A stretch of 64,000 nucleotides of DNA from Fidelibacterota bacterium (GCA_013204025.1 JABMOW010000089.1:1-64000), one strand, 5' to 3'. Shown: positions 43,475-51,326, numbered from the stretch's first letter. Notes: generated from the letters alone by a model not told the origin. A program made the numbers and translations.

Positions 43475-45531
43475 AAATTTCCGTTATTATCATCAGTTAC
43501 AACGTATGCGCCTATTTAAGGCAATGTCTGAAGTCAGTGTCCAAAAGTACAGGTAATGCTGAATATGAAGTCATTGTCATTGATAATAATTCCATTGATA
43601 CATCTGTTAAAATGGTTCAACAAGAATTTCCACAAGTTAAAATAATCGGTAATACCGAAAACACGGGATTTTCAAAAGCGGTCAATCAAGCAGTTAAAAT
43701 TGCAAACGGTGATTTTATCTGTCTTTTAAATCCGGATTGTGTCATCAAAACTGATACTTTGTCAGTTTTATCAGAATATCTCACTCAAAACGCAGATGTG
43801 GGTGTGGTAGGATGTAAAGTTCTAAATTCTGACGGAAGTCTTCAACTAGCATCTAGACGAACATTCCCCAAGTTAGTGGTCACATTACCCAGATTATTTG
43901 GCCTACATCGGATATTTCCTAAAAATCGCATCTTTGGTAAATATAACCTTACGCATATCGATGATACCGTTATCCAGGATACCGATGCTGTTAGTGGTTC
44001 ATGTATGATGTTCTCACGTACAACTGTTGACACAGTGGGGCAATTTGATGAACGATTTTTTTTGTATTTTGAAGACACAGACTTCTGCTACCGTGTCAAG
44101 AAGGGTGGATATCGCGTAGTATATAACCCAGATACTCAAATCATCCATTATAAAGGTGAAAGCACAAAATTCGCTCGATCTGTATCAGAGGAAAACTTTC
44201 ATCAATCCGCTTATTTATTTTTCAAAAAATATTCTCATGAATTCCCTTTGTGGAATGTATTCAGATTTTTTGTGTGGATTGCGATAGGCTTTCGAAAAGT
44301 TGGTAGTCATTTATTTACCCATAAATCTTCAATAATATCATGGTTTTTGGACAGTTCACTCGTGCTAATGGCGTTTTATGGATCTATGGCATTTTGGTAT
44401 CCGCACCATTTTGGCATACCTGTGTCTATTAGTTATGTCGCTGAACATTGGAAGCTGTGGACAACATACCTAATCATCTGGCATGCAGTTGCTATTTGGC
44501 TTTCGCTTTATAAAAAAAACAATCTTTCATACGGGCGTCCTTTAGTGGTTAGCGCTATTTCATTTATCGGTGTATCCACCGTCACGTATTTCATTTCGGT
44601 ATTCGCATATTCCCGCGTAGTATTGTTATTTACATTCTTAATTTCTGCATTTTTACAGGCGATGTGGCGAATTATGGTTCATTTATTTTATAGACAGCAA
44701 TGGATAAGAGTATCACACGTTCCGCCATTTTTTACTCGTAATGCGATCATATTGGGCAATCCTACTGCTGCTGCCAATATCTCTAAGTTACTGGATCAAT
44801 CGCCCTCCTTGTTTTACAAAGTACTGGGAGTAATCTGCGATCAGTTCGTTGGCAAAAGTGATCCAAAGATCAAGTACCTAGGACCGGTTAGACAACTTTG
44901 TGCTATTGCCAAACAATATCAGGTCAATGAGATTATCATTTTGGAGGAATCCTATTCTGTTAGCGATATTATTGAGCAGATTCAGGCACTTTCAGGGATG
45001 AATATTGTTTTCAAATTCGTTCCGGACGGACACCATTATCTGATCGGGAAGGGCGTGGTTGATAATATCGGTGGAATTCCACTTGTTGGTATAGATTTTC
45101 CGTTATTTGACCGACTGCATTTGTTTGCTAAAAGAATATTTGATACGATTCTTTCTTTATTGATGATCTTGTTGACGCTACCAATTCATATCTACTTATG
45201 GATATTGATGAAAGCTAAAAAAGTAAAAATTTGGTCACCAGATCATATCGGAATTCAACTGTTGGAATTTGATGTAGCAAACCCATTGCTTCAGAAACTT
45301 CCTTATTTGTACTCGATATTTGTGGGAAAAATCAGTTTTGTAGGTAGCGAGGTTGTTGATTATTCTAAACCTGATCCCGGGATCATCATTAAGCCAGGGA
45401 TAACTGGATTATCACAATTAAAAAATGGTTCCGTTCAAGATGCAAACAATCATTTTGAACAATATTATATCCAAAATCAAAATTTGGTTTTTGATTTAGA
45501 AATTTTACTTAAATCTATTTTGAGGATCTGA
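43471..45531 (+). CDS. Fusion: GT2 glycosyltransferase plus degenerate phosphoglycosyltransferase-like domain
   Basis: A 686-aa two-part protein. Residues about 1-250 are a GT2 enzyme of the rhamnosyltransferase (WbbL) kind: ISVIIISYNV, VIDNNSIDTS, LNPDCVI and FDERFFLYFEDTDFCYRV. Four to five membrane segments follow (about 285-420), then a CoA-binding-like Rossmann part (NAIILGNPTAAANISKLLDQSP) and a C-terminal part like a polyprenyl-phosphate sugar transferase: FAKRIFDTILSLL, GKISFVGSEVV, KPGITGLSQL and a final DLEILLKSI. The KFRTM-type segment and its acidic dyad that normally carry catalysis are not recognisable, so this half may be inactive or divergent. Acceptor unknown. Confidence 0.85.
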   Translation: MKISVIIISYNVCAYLRQCLKSVSKSTGNAEYEVIVIDNNSIDTSVKMVQQEFPQVKIIGNTENTGFSKAVNQAVKIANGDFICLLNPDCVIKTDTLSVLSEYLTQNADVGVVGCKVLNSDGSLQLASRRTFPKLVVTLPRLFGLHRIFPKNRIFGKYNLTHIDDTVIQDTDAVSGSCMMFSRTTVDTVGQFDERFFLYFEDTDFCYRVKKGGYRVVYNPDTQIIHYKGESTKFARSVSEENFHQSAYLFFKKYSHEFPLWNVFRFFVWIAIGFRKVGSHLFTHKSSIISWFLDSSLVLMAFYGSMAFWYPHHFGIPVSISYVAEHWKLWTTYLIIWHAVAIWLSLYKKNNLSYGRPLVVSAISFIGVSTVTYFISVFAYSRVVLLFTFLISAFLQAMWRIMVHLFYRQQWIRVSHVPPFFTRNAIILGNPTAAANISKLLDQSPSLFYKVLGVICDQFVGKSDPKIKYLGPVRQLCAIAKQYQVNEIIILEESYSVSDIIEQIQALSGMNIVFKFVPDGHHYLIGKGVVDNIGGIPLVGIDFPLFDRLHLFAKRIFDTILSLLMILLTLPIHIYLWILMKAKKVKIWSPDHIGIQLLEFDVANPLLQKLPYLYSIFVGKISFVGSEVVDYSKPDPGIIIKPGITGLSQLKNGSVQDANNHFEQYYIQNQNLVFDLEILLKSILRI

Positions 45532-46487
45532 TGTCTAATTACATTCTAGATTTCGAAGCACCTTTAAAAGTGATTGATGAAAAAATTGATATGCTCCGTT
45601 TAACCGGTACAAAAACGGGTGAGAATGTTTCATCTAATATCAAAAAATTGGAAGCTAAACTTGAACAAAAGAAAGCGGACATATACTCTAAATTGTCACG
45701 ATGGGACAGAGTTCAGCTTGCCAGACATCCAAACAGACCTCATTCTCTGGATTACATTCGAATGATTTCGGAAGATTTTTTTGAACTACACGGAGATCGT
45801 TATTTTGCTGAAGATCCATCTGTTGTCTGCGGTTTAATGACAATGGAGGATAAACCATATATGGTGATCGCTCAGCAAAAAGGCAGAACCACCAAAGAGA
45901 ATCTGTACCGGAATTTTGGGATGTCCAGACCGGAAGGATATCGAAAAGCGCTTCGTATTATGAAACTTGCTGAAAAATTTAATGTGCCAATCCTCACGCT
46001 TATTGATACAATGGGTGCGTATCCCGGGTTAGGTGCTGAAGAACGGGGACAAGCAGAAGCGATTGCACGGAACCTATTTGAAATGCCTTTATTAGAAGTC
46101 CCGATCATCAATTTGGTTATCGGTGAAGGAGCATCTGGTGGCGCTCTAGGCATCGGAGTAGGTGACAGGCTATTCTGTCAGGAAAACACATGGTTTTCGG
46201 TTATATCACCTGAAGGATGCGCTTCGATTCTGTACAGAGATTCTTCAAGAGCATTTGAAGCAGCTGATGCTATGAAAGTTACAGCTGCAGATCTCATGGA
46301 AATGGGAATTGCTGATAAAATTATTCCTGAACCCAACTACGGCGCTCATTATGATTCTGATGGGGCAGCTAAAGTTGTAAAGGAGACGCTCATTAAGGAA
46401 TTCCAATATTTGTTGAACATGGACAAAGAAGAGCTCCTCCGGCAAAGATTTGTGAAATATGAGCGAATTGGGAGTTGGAAAGAATAA
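45531..46487 (+). CDS. accA: Acetyl-CoA carboxylase carboxyltransferase subunit alpha
   Basis: A 318-aa subunit (E. coli AccA is 319 aa) that transfers carboxyl from biotin to acetyl-CoA. Signatures: ISEDFFELHGDR, FGMSRPEGYRKALRIMKLAEKF, LIDTMGAYPGLGAEERGQ and VISPEGCASILYRD. TGATG overlaps the previous stop by one base. accD is not in the window. Confidence 0.96.
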   Translation: MSNYILDFEAPLKVIDEKIDMLRLTGTKTGENVSSNIKKLEAKLEQKKADIYSKLSRWDRVQLARHPNRPHSLDYIRMISEDFFELHGDRYFAEDPSVVCGLMTMEDKPYMVIAQQKGRTTKENLYRNFGMSRPEGYRKALRIMKLAEKFNVPILTLIDTMGAYPGLGAEERGQAEAIARNLFEMPLLEVPIINLVIGEGASGGALGIGVGDRLFCQENTWFSVISPEGCASILYRDSSRAFEAADAMKVTAADLMEMGIADKIIPEPNYGAHYDSDGAAKVVKETLIKEFQYLLNMDKEELLRQRFVKYERIGSWKE

Positions 46488-46723: not shown

Positions 46724-48151
46724 ATGATTACATTTAGTCAAAAACAACTCAAAATTCCTCAAATGAGTAAACCGGTATACCTGGTTACCGGTGGAATGTC
46801 AAAATTCGGTAGAGCAATTCCCGAAATGAGGACAGAAGAGTTAGTAGTCGATGCCTTTACAGAAGCAGCCGAATTTATCAAAAAATCCCCTGCAGAGTTA
46901 AAGAAATACATTCACTCCTGCTATTATGGTCATTTTGCAGACCACTTTGGAGATCAGTTACTTGGCGAGGCGTTAATCCATGATCGTTTAGGCCTTGACC
47001 CATTGGGTAATGTGGGGATCAAAACAGGAGGTGCTACCGGAGGCTCAACTCTATGGGAAGCATTCAAGGCGGTAGCGTCTGGATATTCTGATTGCGTTTT
47101 AGCAATGGGTTGGGAACGAATGGACGAAGTACCAACTGACGAAGGGAATAACTACATCGCATGTGCAGCCGATAAAGATTGGGAAACGCCATTAGGTCAC
47201 ATCTATACGGGCTATTACGCCGTGATGGCTCAAAAATATTGGCAAGTCTTTGGGAAGTCAGAAGATTCCTTCAGAAAAACAATGGCTGAAATTGCAGTTA
47301 AAAACCGTGGTTACGCTCGAATGAACCCTCATGCGCAGGGTCCAATGAAAATTACTGTTGAGGATGTTTTGAAATCACCAGTGGTCGCATATCCGTTAAG
47401 GGCATTGGACTGTTGTCTGATGAGTGTGGGCGCAGCGTGTGCCATCTTATGTGATGAAAAAACTGCATACGAGCTAACAGATAATCCATTACTGGTCTAT
47501 GTTACTGCAGGAAGTCATACGCTTCGTGTAGCAGACCGCCGAAACATGGAAATTCCTCTATTACCGAACGAATCTGCAGACCAATACAAAGACCTTGGTG
47601 AGCGATTCCCGGGTAGTGACAGATATCCAGGATTTACCGGTTTTCTTGCTGCAAGAATGGCGGCTTATTATGCATATGGGATGGCAAATATTTACGATCC
47701 TACAGAAGATCTGGATCTGGTGGAATTGCATGATGCGTTTACGATTAGTGATATCCAGACATATGAAGACGTGGGAATTCGACCCTATGGCGAAGGCCGA
47801 ACTTACGTGGAGTCCGGCGATTGCTATCACACGAATCCAAATACCGGCAAACCAGGGAAACTTCCTGCTAATTTATCCGGTGGCTTGATTGGAAACATGC
47901 ATGCAGTAGGTGCAACGGGAATCATGCAGGCTGTCGAAGTGGGGCAGCACATCTGGGGACGTTGGGCAGAAATGCATGAAAATCAGAAAAAATGGGATGC
48001 ATATGGACGCACCAAACCCAAAGATTGGCAAAATCTTCAGGTGGATAACGCCAAAAGAGGAATGGCCATCAGCCATGCTGGCGTCGGATCGCATGTAACT
48101 GCTACTATTTTAGTCCATCCTGACCATCAATTAAAAGGAAGAAACTCATGA
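46724..48151 (+). CDS. Thiolase-fold protein lacking the nucleophilic Cys
   Basis: A 475-aa thiolase-superfamily protein of the SCP2/archaeal type. The first active-site loop, normally CASG, reads GGATGG (G103 where the nucleophilic Cys should be), NEAF is LHDAFTISD, the third loop NMHAVGATG keeps its His, and the fourth, usually CxG, reads HAGVGSH. It therefore cannot do normal thiolysis, but could bind acyl-CoA or act like the Ltp2 aldolases, which are Cys-less thiolase relatives that work with DUF35 partners. The next gene, overlapping by 4 bp, encodes such a DUF35 protein. Start follows AAGGA with suitable spacing. Confidence 0.85.
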   Translation: MITFSQKQLKIPQMSKPVYLVTGGMSKFGRAIPEMRTEELVVDAFTEAAEFIKKSPAELKKYIHSCYYGHFADHFGDQLLGEALIHDRLGLDPLGNVGIKTGGATGGSTLWEAFKAVASGYSDCVLAMGWERMDEVPTDEGNNYIACAADKDWETPLGHIYTGYYAVMAQKYWQVFGKSEDSFRKTMAEIAVKNRGYARMNPHAQGPMKITVEDVLKSPVVAYPLRALDCCLMSVGAACAILCDEKTAYELTDNPLLVYVTAGSHTLRVADRRNMEIPLLPNESADQYKDLGERFPGSDRYPGFTGFLAARMAAYYAYGMANIYDPTEDLDLVELHDAFTISDIQTYEDVGIRPYGEGRTYVESGDCYHTNPNTGKPGKLPANLSGGLIGNMHAVGATGIMQAVEVGQHIWGRWAEMHENQKKWDAYGRTKPKDWQNLQVDNAKRGMAISHAGVGSHVTATILVHPDHQLKGRNS

Positions 48152-48747
48152 GTAATTCTAATAAACGCGGAACGGTCAAAGTGATCAATGGGCGATACCG
48201 ACCCGATGGATCATTTCATTATAACTATCCCAATACTCCAATTTATGATGAAGCTGGGAAGCTCATGGGAGTTACCAATCCAAGAGACCTCACACACATA
48301 CACGCATATGGAGGTGAATCTCAATTTTTTAGTTCTTTGAAGGATGGAGAGATATGGGGCACAAAATGTGAAAATCCCGATTGTGAACATACTGGCACAG
48401 TAAATCTTCCTTACAAAATCTACTGTCCTGATTGTTTAAAAAAAGCAATACCGGTTAATTTGACAGCCACAGCCATTAAAAGTGCAACCGTGCATACTTT
48501 TATGGTCACCGAAAGAACTGGCGCATTCAACACGCTGGAAAAGCCTATTCGATTTATCAATATTGAGTTTGAGGGTGTTGATACAATTCTGATGAGCTAT
48601 CTTTCCGTTGGTGAACCTAAAGTAGGGATGAGGGTTGTACCGATCTTTAGAAAAGTAGAACCGACTTTCACAATTCTCGATCTATCGTGGGTACCACTGG
48701 GAACATCGGTGGAAAAATTGCCTGATGGCTTTTCATTCTCTAAATAG
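48148..48747 (+). CDS. DUF35-type Zn-ribbon/OB-fold protein
   Basis: A 199-aa protein of the DUF35 (rubredoxin-like Zn ribbon plus OB-fold) family. The ribbon is GTKCENPDCEHTG...YKIYCPDCLKK with four Cys, followed by an OB-like part (KSATVHTFMVTERTGAFN, GVDTILMSYLSVGEPKVGMRVVPIFRKVEPTF). These proteins are usually encoded beside thiolase-fold enzymes and form a complex with them, e.g. archaeal acetoacetyl-CoA thiolase/HMG-CoA synthase or the Ltp2 aldolase. It overlaps the thiolase-like gene by 4 bp. The N-terminal part (IYDEAGKLMGVTNPRDLTHIHAYGG) is longer than in many members. Confidence 0.88.
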   Translation: MSNSNKRGTVKVINGRYRPDGSFHYNYPNTPIYDEAGKLMGVTNPRDLTHIHAYGGESQFFSSLKDGEIWGTKCENPDCEHTGTVNLPYKIYCPDCLKKAIPVNLTATAIKSATVHTFMVTERTGAFNTLEKPIRFINIEFEGVDTILMSYLSVGEPKVGMRVVPIFRKVEPTFTILDLSWVPLGTSVEKLPDGFSFSK

Positions 48748-48797: not shown

Positions 48798-48812
48798 ATG
48801 TTTAGGAGTAAC

Positions 48813-49589
48813 ATGTCAAAACTAATCAGATTTACGTGTCAGGATGATGGAATTGGATTCTTAACTTTAGCCAATCCGCCAGTTAATACACTTTCCAGTG
48901 AAATGGTGTCCCAGCTATCAGAAGTTATCAATCGGATAACTACCGATAAAGACATCAGGGCTCTGATCGTCATGTCGGCGGAAAAACATTTTTGTGTGGG
49001 ATTGGACCTCAAAGAACAGTCAAACATCTCTAAAGAGCAATCCGTAGCCGATGTTGACCGAATGCGGGATACATACACCCAGCTTTCAGAACTATCCATC
49101 CCAACCATTTGTGGTGTTAGCGGAGCCGCATTGGGTGGTGGTGCTGAATTAGCGTTGAGTTGCGATTTTCGTATTCTCGATGAATCAGCAACAATCGGCT
49201 TCCCGGAAGCACAATTGGGGATCATTCCCGGAGCTGGTGGTACCCAGAGACTTCCCAGGTTGATTGGACCATCCAAAGCCAAATACTGGATATTTTCCGG
49301 TAAAATATTCTCGTCTGAAGAAGCATTGGATGATGGAGTAGCCGATTTCCTTGTAGATGATGGCACTGTGCTGGAATCTGCAATTGAGTTAGCCGTTGAA
49401 TTGCTCACGTCTGGACCTATTGCTCTGAAAGCGGCGAAATACTGCATCGATTCAGGATTGGAAGTCTCGATTGCGGAAGGATTACAAATTGAGCAAACTC
49501 ATTTTAGCGCTCTTGTGGAAACAGAAGATCGCGATGAGGGACTTAAAGCCTTCCTTGAAAAAAGAGACGCGGATTGGGAAAATAAATAG
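48813..49589 (+). CDS. Enoyl-CoA hydratase/isomerase family protein
   Basis: The ATG at 48813 (MSKLIRFTCQDDG) follows AGGAG at 48804-48808 and avoids the hairpin; the track start at 48798 lies directly on the hairpin base. The product is 258 aa, crotonase-fold. The oxyanion-hole motifs are LDLKEQ and GVSGAALGGGAELALSCD, followed by FPEAQLGIIPGAGGTQRL with the position of the second catalytic Glu. The substrate is not known, but its place after the thiolase/DUF35 pair suggests acyl-CoA chemistry in the same pathway. Confidence 0.9.
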   Translation: MSKLIRFTCQDDGIGFLTLANPPVNTLSSEMVSQLSEVINRITTDKDIRALIVMSAEKHFCVGLDLKEQSNISKEQSVADVDRMRDTYTQLSELSIPTICGVSGAALGGGAELALSCDFRILDESATIGFPEAQLGIIPGAGGTQRLPRLIGPSKAKYWIFSGKIFSSEEALDDGVADFLVDDGTVLESAIELAVELLTSGPIALKAAKYCIDSGLEVSIAEGLQIEQTHFSALVETEDRDEGLKAFLEKRDADWENK

Positions 49590-49658: not shown

Positions 49659-51326
49659 ATGTTTAATAAACGTCATGGATTAGTAGTTATCATCATTTTA
49701 GCTTGGAGTTGTTCCGGAATTTCACATCGGTATGTCCCAAACTGGAATACGGTCAACATTCCCGAAAAACTAGGGAAATATCCAAAAGTAAGAGAATCTG
49801 ATCTTTTGCGAGGGGAATTGTCCAAGTTTAAATCCTGCTATGATGTAACCTTTTACGATCTGGATATAGATGTAAATATTGATAAAAAGAGCATTTCCGG
49901 ATGGGTGGATTTTCATGTCAACACTATGACTACTTTAGATACTCTCCAATTTGATCTATCTGACAAACTCAAGATCGTTTCGATTACGTTCATGAATAAC
50001 AATATCCCATTTTATCGTAAGTCGAATTCAGTATTCGCAGTGTTTCCTCAAACCGAAAAAGGCAGTCAAATGGTATTCCGTGTGACTTATGAGGGGAAAC
50101 CGGTGGAGGCTAAAAATGCGCCCTGGGATGGGGGATTCGTATGGACAGAAGATAAAAACGATAATCCATGGGTAGCAGTGGCTTGCGAAGGAGAAGGTGC
50201 TTTGTTGTGGTGGCCAAACAAGGATCATCCCACAGAAGAGCCTGACAGCATGCAAATTACTATCCATGCCCCTTCTGATCTTTTTGCTGTGGCAAATGGC
50301 ACGCTAGAAGAAGTGAGAAGCAGCTCAAGTGATGGAAAAATGGCTTACAGATGGATGGTTCGGAATCCCATAAACAATTATAATGTGACCTTAAACATCG
50401 GTGATTACGTCTTGGTGGCAGATACACTTATCAATCAGAGTGGTATCCATCAAATGGATCACTACGTGCTGTCATATAATCAAGCTGTAGCACAATCGCA
50501 TTTCAAACAGGCAAGAGATGTGATACATGTATTTGAGAAGTATTTCGGTGAATTTCCCTGGTGGAATGACGGCTATAGATTGGTAGAAACACCCTATCGA
50601 GGCATGGAGCATCAGTCCGCTGTGGCATATGGCAACGAATATAAAAACAATAACAACTATTACATCTACGATTTGGTGGATTACATCATCCTTCACGAAT
50701 CTGCACACGAATGGTGGGGGAACAATATTTCCGCCTGTGACGGCGCTGATATCTGGCTCCATGAGGCATTTGCCACTTATTCCGAGGTGATTTATCTGGA
50801 AGAAAAATTAGGCAAGTTGGTTAGTGTTGACTATTTGATGAATAAACGTCGATACATCCGAAACTCGCTGCCGATGGTGGGCCCGAGAGATGTGAATTAC
50901 TGGGGCTTTGATGATGTTTACTGGAAAGGTGCCTGGGTGCTCCATACCTTGCGAAGTGTAATCAATGATGATGATACTTTTTATGGTATTCTGTATGAAT
51001 TTCAAACTCGATTTGCCAAAAGCATTGTGTGCACAGAAGATTTTATCAATTTAGTAAATGAAATGACCCATACAGATAATACCTATTTTTTTGATCAGTA
51101 CTTGTACGACCGAAAACCTCCGATCTTTGAATACAAAATAACAGATACCAATCTTGAGTACCGATGGACAGACGTTCCTAATTCGTTTATCATGCCACTT
51201 TACATCAACGTAAATGAAGAGCGAATATGGTTACAGCCCACAACAGAATTTCAGATTTTTAATATCCCGCTTCATTCTACAGTTGACATCCCCGGTCGGT
51301 ATTTTTATATGGCGGTAAAGGATTAA
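49659..51326 (+). CDS. M1-family zinc metallopeptidase (lipoprotein)
   Basis: A 555-aa aminopeptidase-type enzyme. The zinc site is H346-ESA-H350 in LHESAHEWWG, with E369 19 residues later (WLHEAFATYSE), and the substrate motif is RGMEHQSAVAYG. The N-terminus VVIIILAWSC is a lipobox-type signal, so the enzyme is probably anchored in the envelope facing the periplasm or surface. The C-terminal domain of larger M1 enzymes is absent. Substrate peptides are unknown. Confidence 0.92.
   Translation: MFNKRHGLVVIIILAWSCSGISHRYVPNWNTVNIPEKLGKYPKVRESDLLRGELSKFKSCYDVTFYDLDIDVNIDKKSISGWVDFHVNTMTTLDTLQFDLSDKLKIVSITFMNNNIPFYRKSNSVFAVFPQTEKGSQMVFRVTYEGKPVEAKNAPWDGGFVWTEDKNDNPWVAVACEGEGALLWWPNKDHPTEEPDSMQITIHAPSDLFAVANGTLEEVRSSSSDGKMAYRWMVRNPINNYNVTLNIGDYVLVADTLINQSGIHQMDHYVLSYNQAVAQSHFKQARDVIHVFEKYFGEFPWWNDGYRLVETPYRGMEHQSAVAYGNEYKNNNNYYIYDLVDYIILHESAHEWWGNNISACDGADIWLHEAFATYSEVIYLEEKLGKLVSVDYLMNKRRYIRNSLPMVGPRDVNYWGFDDVYWKGAWVLHTLRSVINDDDTFYGILYEFQTRFAKSIVCTEDFINLVNEMTHTDNTYFFDQYLYDRKPPIFEYKITDTNLEYRWTDVPNSFIMPLYINVNEERIWLQPTTEFQIFNIPLHSTVDIPGRYFYMAVKD

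Follow-up and report, generated by a model that had tools for sequence, protein, structure and literature searches.

What can a thiolase-like protein do when both catalytic cysteines of a thiolase are missing? The question is raised by a pair of genes in a 64,000-nucleotide stretch of DNA from a Fidelibacterota bacterium (GCA_013204025.1 JABMOW010000089.1:1-64000, hereafter the window). The first gene (46724..48151, plus strand, as for every window feature below) encodes a Cys-less protein of 475 aa. It scored 709.9 bits against the cut-off of 695 of NCBIfam NF004982/PRK06365 and is thus a member of this family, the model of which was also matched below E 1e-100 by 15 of 20 aligned homologues. 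The second gene (48148..48747) encodes a DUF35-type partner of 199 aa, and the two reading frames share 4 bp, ATGA at 48148-48151, an overlap already pointed out in an earlier note on this DNA.

We examined the active-site loops of the thiolase-like protein. Its nucleophile loop reads KTGGATGG, in which the codon at 47030..47032 specifies Gly103, and phmmer alignments place this Gly opposite the Cys of the Methanothermococcus acetoacetyl-CoA thiolase (6esq), the Pyrococcus thiolase (7yvy) and BbsB (7pxp). The Nb3-Na3 loop, where SCP2-type and archaeal biosynthetic thiolases carry their nucleophilic Cys, therefore has Gly instead; the Cys-less GGATGG that the earlier note had read is confirmed, and no Cys was found in this loop by alignment. 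The same note had taken GVG near the C terminus (residues 453-455, in ISHAGVGSH; 48080..48088) for the place of the second lost Cys, and this reading did not hold. Among the loci retrieved, DUF35-linked thiolases of the Cys type have NMGGTG as their last loop, and GVG is not diagnostic of Cys loss because these members of the subgroup are Cys-free there too. The second Cys sits in the HDCF motif of SCP2-type thiolases, and the equivalent motif here is HDAF (His336-Asp-Ala-Phe339; 47729..47740) with Ala338 in place of Cys, so that both thiolase cysteines are indeed gone, as the note had concluded. HDAF is weak evidence of a non-thiolase, however, since 7yvy, an archaeal thiolase still bearing its Cys, shares it. 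The GHP-type catalytic His of SCP2-type and archaeal thiolases is present as His393 (47900..47902) in an intact NMHAVGATG loop (residues 391-399), again as noted earlier, and is invariant in our alignment A1. Both KTGGATGG and HDAF are invariant across 82 orthologues, showing that the loss of Cys is neither chance nor a sequencing error. Such a loss might leave the thiolase-like subunit without catalytic activity, acting only as a scaffold or regulator, but 217 positions are invariant in these bacterial and archaeal orthologues, including His and Gly of the catalytic loops, and we consider a dead subunit highly improbable.

The pairing with the partner is constant. The partner lies within 400 bp of the thiolase-like gene in 67 of 76 scored loci, and all 77 partners examined retain its C-x4-C...CxxC zinc ribbon (C74-x4-C79...C93-x2-C96 in the window, 48367..48435). 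A profile of 13 orthologous partners matched the DUF35 structures 3irb (1e-8), Sal-Shy 9myr_B (2e-4), 6esq_E (3e-4) and ChsH2 6ok1_B (1e-3), and among these 13 members zf-ChsH2 was matched in 6 and OB_ChsH2_C in 4. An AlphaFold model of the partner was set aside for its low confidence (pLDDT 51.5, pTM 0.41). The pair thus has the layout of the DUF35-associated thiolase superfamily, a thiolase-fold subunit with an adjacent zinc-ribbon/OB protein, and the two genes would form one enzyme, composed of a Cys-less thiolase-fold subunit and a zinc-ribbon/OB (DUF35) subunit.

In the window the pair is located between accA (45531..46487) and a gene for an M1-type peptidase homologue (49659..51326), which mark the left and right of a syntenic interval and are not part of the proposed enzyme. 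An enoyl-CoA hydratase gene (48798..49589; 263 aa; PF00378, 205 bits) follows 50 bp downstream of the pair; its best NCBIfam match, PRK07657, scored under the cut-off of that model. This type of hydratase is conserved beside the pair in family f1 relatives and is a candidate source of a beta-hydroxyacyl-CoA substrate. Genome G046 has in this interval, again downstream of accA, a 42% homologue of the thiolase-like protein (452 aa, GGGATGG; L008 1519-2877, G046:C6), and the DUF35-like gene that adjoins it has lost the zinc-ribbon Cys.

The order accA, pair, hydratase, M1 peptidase is the same interval as in the L211-type loci, although the window hydratase is not orthologous to the hydratase of that type (27-29% identity). 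Comparison of this interval between congeners showed that the pair occupies the place of an MCC-HMGL (liu) leucine operon. One genome (L214, G043) has accA ... EamA - MCCb - HMGL - hydratase - PpiD ... M1 peptidase, whereas its congener (L211, G056) has accA ... EamA - asnA - DUF35 - thiolase-like - hydratase - PpiD ... M1 peptidase, and the hydratases of the two are 69% identical. MCCb-HMGL-hydratase-PpiD in L214 and L297 is thus matched by DUF35-thiolase-like-hydratase-PpiD in L211, L307 and L298, and since L297 (MCCb-HMGL) and L298 (pair) both come from genus g42, the same exchange is seen there. Genus g83 shows a full operon swap, in which MCCb-hydratase-MCCa-HMGL (L303) is exchanged for the pair alone (L304) between common flanks, an outer-membrane-type protein and lgt. 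In genus g59, MCCb-HMGL is beside EamA in L299 and the pair is beside EamA in L301 and L302, EamA being the only shared flank. We therefore see the exchange within three Neomarinimicrobiota genera and, with less flank in common, within a fourth (g59), and it involves two separate sites on the chromosome. The HMGLs that were exchanged scored 448.8 and 386.8 bits, where the cut-off is 246, and are genuine, and the exchanged MCCb matches solved MCC beta chains, with Pseudomonas MCC beta among its best relatives.

The two systems also exclude each other. In 245 Neomarinimicrobiota genomes, we found the pair in 37, MCCb (counted at 58-100% identity to the reference MCCb of L214) in 46 and both in none (Fisher p 4e-4, genomes treated as independent); in the 94 genomes of high quality, hand-read counts were 17, 18 and 0, respectively (hypergeometric p 0.018, genomes again treated as independent). 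The genomes are mostly MAGs and absence counts are of lower quality than presence counts; the within-genus exchanges are stronger evidence than the genome-wide exclusion test. Mutual exclusion with MCC together with exchange at the same locus, as expected of a functional replacement, was hence found in four genera, g59 with its short flank included. HMGL behaved similarly in a 60-genome set, where all matches above 360 bits (G043, G048, G053, G059) were in genomes without the pair. One pair genome, G056, gave an HMGL-like match of 310 bits beside LeuC/LeuD-like genes. Such matches of ~300 bits (G046, G056, G059:C92), adjoining LeuC/LeuD-like genes, were not counted as leucine HMGL because they are probably another lyase. 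HMGL-like lyase genes adjoining LeuC/LeuD-like genes were seen in L210, L209 and L216, with hydantoinase-like genes too in L210, and probably represent a separate catabolic module. The window's own genome has no MCC and no match to NF004283 (HMGL); the PCC-type enzyme that it carries, encoded next to a subunit of methylmalonyl-CoA mutase, is 34% identical to MCCb.

Among 47 pair genomes from all phyla, 39 are without MCCb at an identity of at least 54% and eight keep it, while 20 have no MCC/PCC-type carboxyltransferase match at E 1e-30. Desulfopila keeps a whole MCC-HMGL operon alongside the pair. Four Thermoplasmata pair genomes bear MCCb, two of them in a hydratase-BC-BCCP-MCCb operon, and none of the four has HMGL over the cut-off (L143, L188 and L189 are MCC-positive, HMGL-negative Thermoplasmata loci). 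HMGL over the cut-off was likewise absent from three further MCC-bearing pair genomes (G093, G099, G103). Other HMGL-free loci have MCC genes next to a Cys-bearing DUF35 thiolase: L312 (G130:C88), L311 (G260:C96) and family f4 (L010-L018, e.g. G022:C404). The MCC genes there are those of the beta subunit, joined in L311 by a hydratase and biotin carboxylase, and in L312 and f4 an HMG-CoA synthase-like gene accompanies the thiolase. This suggests a third HMGL-free arrangement, in which HMG-CoA synthase and thiolase acting in reverse replace HMGL.

Leucine catabolism beyond 3-methylcrotonyl-CoA is usually drawn as a single route through biotin-dependent MCC and HMG-CoA lyase. We think the chances slightly favor that the pair is a CoA-dependent retro-aldolase that replaces the MCC and HMGL arm of leucine/isovalerate breakdown, its most likely reaction being the conversion of 3-hydroxyisovaleryl-CoA to acetyl-CoA and acetone. 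A hydratase would add water to 3-methylcrotonyl-CoA; the resulting beta-hydroxyacyl-CoA, 3-hydroxyisovaleryl-CoA, has a tertiary alcohol and would be cleaved by the pair in a retro-aldol reaction that requires neither an acyl-enzyme nor biotin. Ltp2 acts likewise, forming a ketone from a tertiary alcohol. His393 and His336 may stabilise the acetyl-CoA enolate, and the base would be a family-specific residue that is neither Tyr nor Cys. The simplest reading is that the pair acts before carboxylation, because MCC vanishes too; mere replacement of HMGL should have left MCC in place. Counting against this proposal, the protein lacks the catalytic Tyr that Ltp2 and Sal have, and eight pair genomes keep MCCb. 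Leucine oxidation in Neomarinimicrobiota is itself presumed, for no clear orthologue of isovaleryl-CoA dehydrogenase was found in the phylum (best 43% identity); as genomes with MCC gave no better match, this search does not tell the two kinds of genome apart. The lack of an orthologue would be easier to understand if the pair were a retro-aldolase or lyase for another beta-hydroxyacyl-CoA, e.g. 3-hydroxyisobutyryl-CoA or 2-methyl-3-hydroxybutyryl-CoA. Its exchange with MCC/HMGL would then only reflect a shared insertion site and ecology, and IGEGTSE-type acyl-CoA dehydrogenase genes beside the pair in many Desulfobacterota, Spirochaete and Krumholzibacteria loci also agree with such a substrate. 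An exchange at one locus could be coincidence, yet several genera show it, at two chromosomal places, and we regard another substrate as rather unlikely.

The neighbours of the pair in other phyla bear on both substrate and product. In Desulfoprunum (L095) a cupin-type regulator comes first and is followed by thiolase-like, DUF35, acyl-CoA ligase, acetoacetate-CoA ligase and isovaleryl-CoA dehydrogenase genes; Desulfopila (L063) has the same order and L074 a similar one. Isovaleryl-CoA dehydrogenase-like genes (EIGAGTSEIRR) adjoin the pair in L063, L064, L074, L083 and L095, a label that is based on sequence motifs (YERLVLAGGPLG, EIGAGTSEIRR) and not on a curated model, the NCBIfam matches of this dehydrogenase including no isovaleryl-CoA dehydrogenase model. 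In 11 loci, which come from five phyla or more, the pair has acetoacetate-CoA ligase nearby (921.7 bits in L097, against the TIGR01217 cut-off of 520.9). Co-occurrence at the genome level was dropped as evidence, for 38 of 47 pair genomes are over the cut-off but so are 43 of 60 relatives. Because so many relatives are positive too, and because the window's own genome has its copy among tyrosine-degradation genes, in an operon (L162, G000:C4:74000-92000) with 4-hydroxyphenylpyruvate dioxygenase (HPD) and homogentisate dioxygenase (HGD), we kept only the physical adjacency seen in other phyla. In delta-proteobacteria and spirochaetes the gene immediately upstream of the pair encodes an XRE/cupin-type regulator of 180 aa (cluster c6, 15 loci including L063, L074, L079, L095 and L097), and genes similar to BKACE (beta-keto acid cleavage enzyme) occur beside the pair, acetoacetate-CoA ligase or an MCC operon in L190, L182, L185 and Lokiarchaeota loci (cluster c22).

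An acetoacetate-CoA ligase as neighbour fits acetoacetate more directly than acetone. These neighbours prompted our first hypothesis, that the pair is a non-homologous HMG-CoA lyase, which converts 3-hydroxy-3-methylglutaryl-CoA to acetyl-CoA and acetoacetate and replaces HMGL only. The ligase in the 11 loci would then consume the acetoacetate, and the four Thermoplasmata genomes and G093, G099 and G103, with MCC but no HMGL over the cut-off, are as this hypothesis would have them. We downgraded it because most pair genomes are without MCC: in Neomarinimicrobiota MCC is gone together with HMGL where the pair occurs (0/37), and the 20 of 47 genomes that have no MCC/PCC-type carboxyltransferase match would form no HMG-CoA from leucine. 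Moreover, archaea can route HMG-CoA to mevalonate or through a reversed HMG-CoA synthase, without a lyase. We now consider an HMG-CoA lyase unlikely. With a retro-aldolase that forms acetone, the ligase could still have a role in some anaerobes, where acetone may be carboxylated to acetoacetate and this be activated by the neighbouring ligase. Adjacency to the ligase, together with the fact that the nearest folds are real thiolases, would also suit an unconventional, Cys-free acetoacetyl-CoA thiolase or condensing enzyme acting after the ligase. Both catalytic Cys are lost, however, while related genomes have Cys-bearing DUF35 thiolases, and such an enzyme would be redundant in L047 and L081, where classical thiolases adjoin the pair; we therefore find this very unlikely.

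Orthologues with 77-90% identity are present in Neomarinimicrobiota, Thermoplasmata, Lokiarchaeota, Desulfobacterota, other delta-proteobacteria, Spirochaetes, Phycisphaerae and Krumholzibacteria. On the tree, phylum labels change 14 times where 8 changes would be the minimum, and sequences from Spirochaetes, Planctomycetes and delta-proteobacteria are intermingled. This suggests some transfer, although MAG binning errors and paralogues could give the same pattern. A two-gene cassette thus replaces MCC/HMGL at the same locus in several genera and has orthologues in Lokiarchaeota, Thermoplasmata and sulfate reducers, mostly without MCC. It is possible, at a little under an even chance, that it constitutes a carboxylation-free leucine/isovalerate route that moved between bacteria and archaea, including Asgard, taking 3-hydroxyisovaleryl-CoA to acetyl-CoA and acetone and so bypassing biotin-dependent MCC and HMGL. 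Acetone production by a leucine-degrading marine Vibrio is on record, according to a work cited in PMC4033308. Our searches of the open-access literature turned up no report of a 3-hydroxyisovaleryl-CoA lyase that forms acetone. If the proposed route is true, it would assign a role to PRK06365, a conserved family for which none is stated, add an aldolase whose catalytic residues differ from those of Ltp2 and Sal, and link the decay of amino acids to acetone, which an enzyme would then be releasing in oxygen-poor seas and sediments.

How does the pair compare with known systems? The MCC-HMGL operon shares its chromosomal place and is mutually exclusive with it in Neomarinimicrobiota, but its proteins, biotin carboxylase/carboxyltransferase and a TIM-barrel lyase, are unrelated, and its route ends in acetoacetate, not acetone. 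The studied protein likewise has a thiolase fold and not the TIM-barrel fold or sequence of the classical HMG-CoA lyase (NF004283). Its own NCBIfam model, NF004982/PRK06365, is named 'thiolase domain-containing protein', a name that gives no reaction. AlphaFold predicted a confident overall thiolase fold (pTM 0.85), and the top seven Foldseek ranks include 6esq, BbsB, zebrafish SCP2-thiolase, the Cys-less ST0096 and the Pyrococcus thiolase. The archaeal acetoacetyl-CoA thiolase-DUF35-HMG-CoA synthase complex (6esq) is the best structural match and has the same DUF35 partnership, but its thiolase has the nucleophilic Cys and HDCF, both missing here, and its HMG-CoA synthase has no counterpart gene beside the pair. 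Benzoylsuccinyl-CoA thiolase BbsAB (7pxp; fold rank 3) has the same two-subunit plan, but BbsB, unlike the studied protein, retains its nucleophilic Cys (SACSAG). ST0096 of Sulfolobus tokodaii (4yzo) is archaeal, near in fold and also Cys-less in its nucleophile loop, TSGSGG, which differs in sequence; it has 25% identity and is listed only as a putative acyltransferase. Further Cys-less thiolase-like paralogues, with GGTTGG, GGTTGS or GGATGG in the nucleophile loop and several of them adjoining DUF35 genes, were seen in Lokiarchaeota (L098 14320, L088 13843, L065 12525, L069 10237, L073 12591, L059 3801, L061 3661), and it seems from these sequences that a wider class of Cys-less thiolase-like proteins exists.

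Precedents for the proposed chemistry are the Cys-less, DUF35-partnered aldolases Ltp2 and Sal, which act on beta-hydroxyacyl-CoA (PMC12329534). Both the Ltp2-ChsH2(DUF35) steroid aldolase (6ok1) and the Sal-Shy(DUF35) bile-acid aldolase (9myr) have, like the pair, a thiolase fold, a replaced nucleophilic Cys and a DUF35 partner. They have a catalytic Tyr in YDHF and YDCY, respectively, and Sal has Gly at the place of the nucleophilic Cys (PMC12329534). The studied protein shares with them the absence of that Cys but only 18-21% identity, ranks them low in fold (Ltp2 43, Sal 48), and has His336 of HDAF where they have the base Tyr, and Ala338 where Sal has Cys; no steroid-pathway genes lie near the pair. 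The earlier note, by analogy with Ltp2-type aldolases, had proposed that the pair may be an aldolase or acyl-CoA lyase, not a thiolase, and had suggested a check on the conservation of the active-site Tyr. It had named no substrate, for which we propose 3-hydroxyisovaleryl-CoA. With this Tyr replaced by His336 and a fold closer to Cys thiolases, we rejected membership of the Ltp2/Sal aldolases, while the broader proposal is supported, since the protein is Cys-less and DUF35-linked, thiolysis is unlikely and the exchange with MCC-HMGL fits. Clustering with Cys-dependent thiolases, which the note would have taken as counter-evidence, was seen in part: the nearest relatives are Cys-dependent DUF35 thiolases, yet the protein falls in a separate, Cys-less clade. 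Thus, judging from sequence and model together, the protein seems to represent a branch of the DUF35-linked thiolases that became Cys-less independently, outside the Ltp2 and Sal clades because of their low fold ranks and the His336 at the position of their Tyr.
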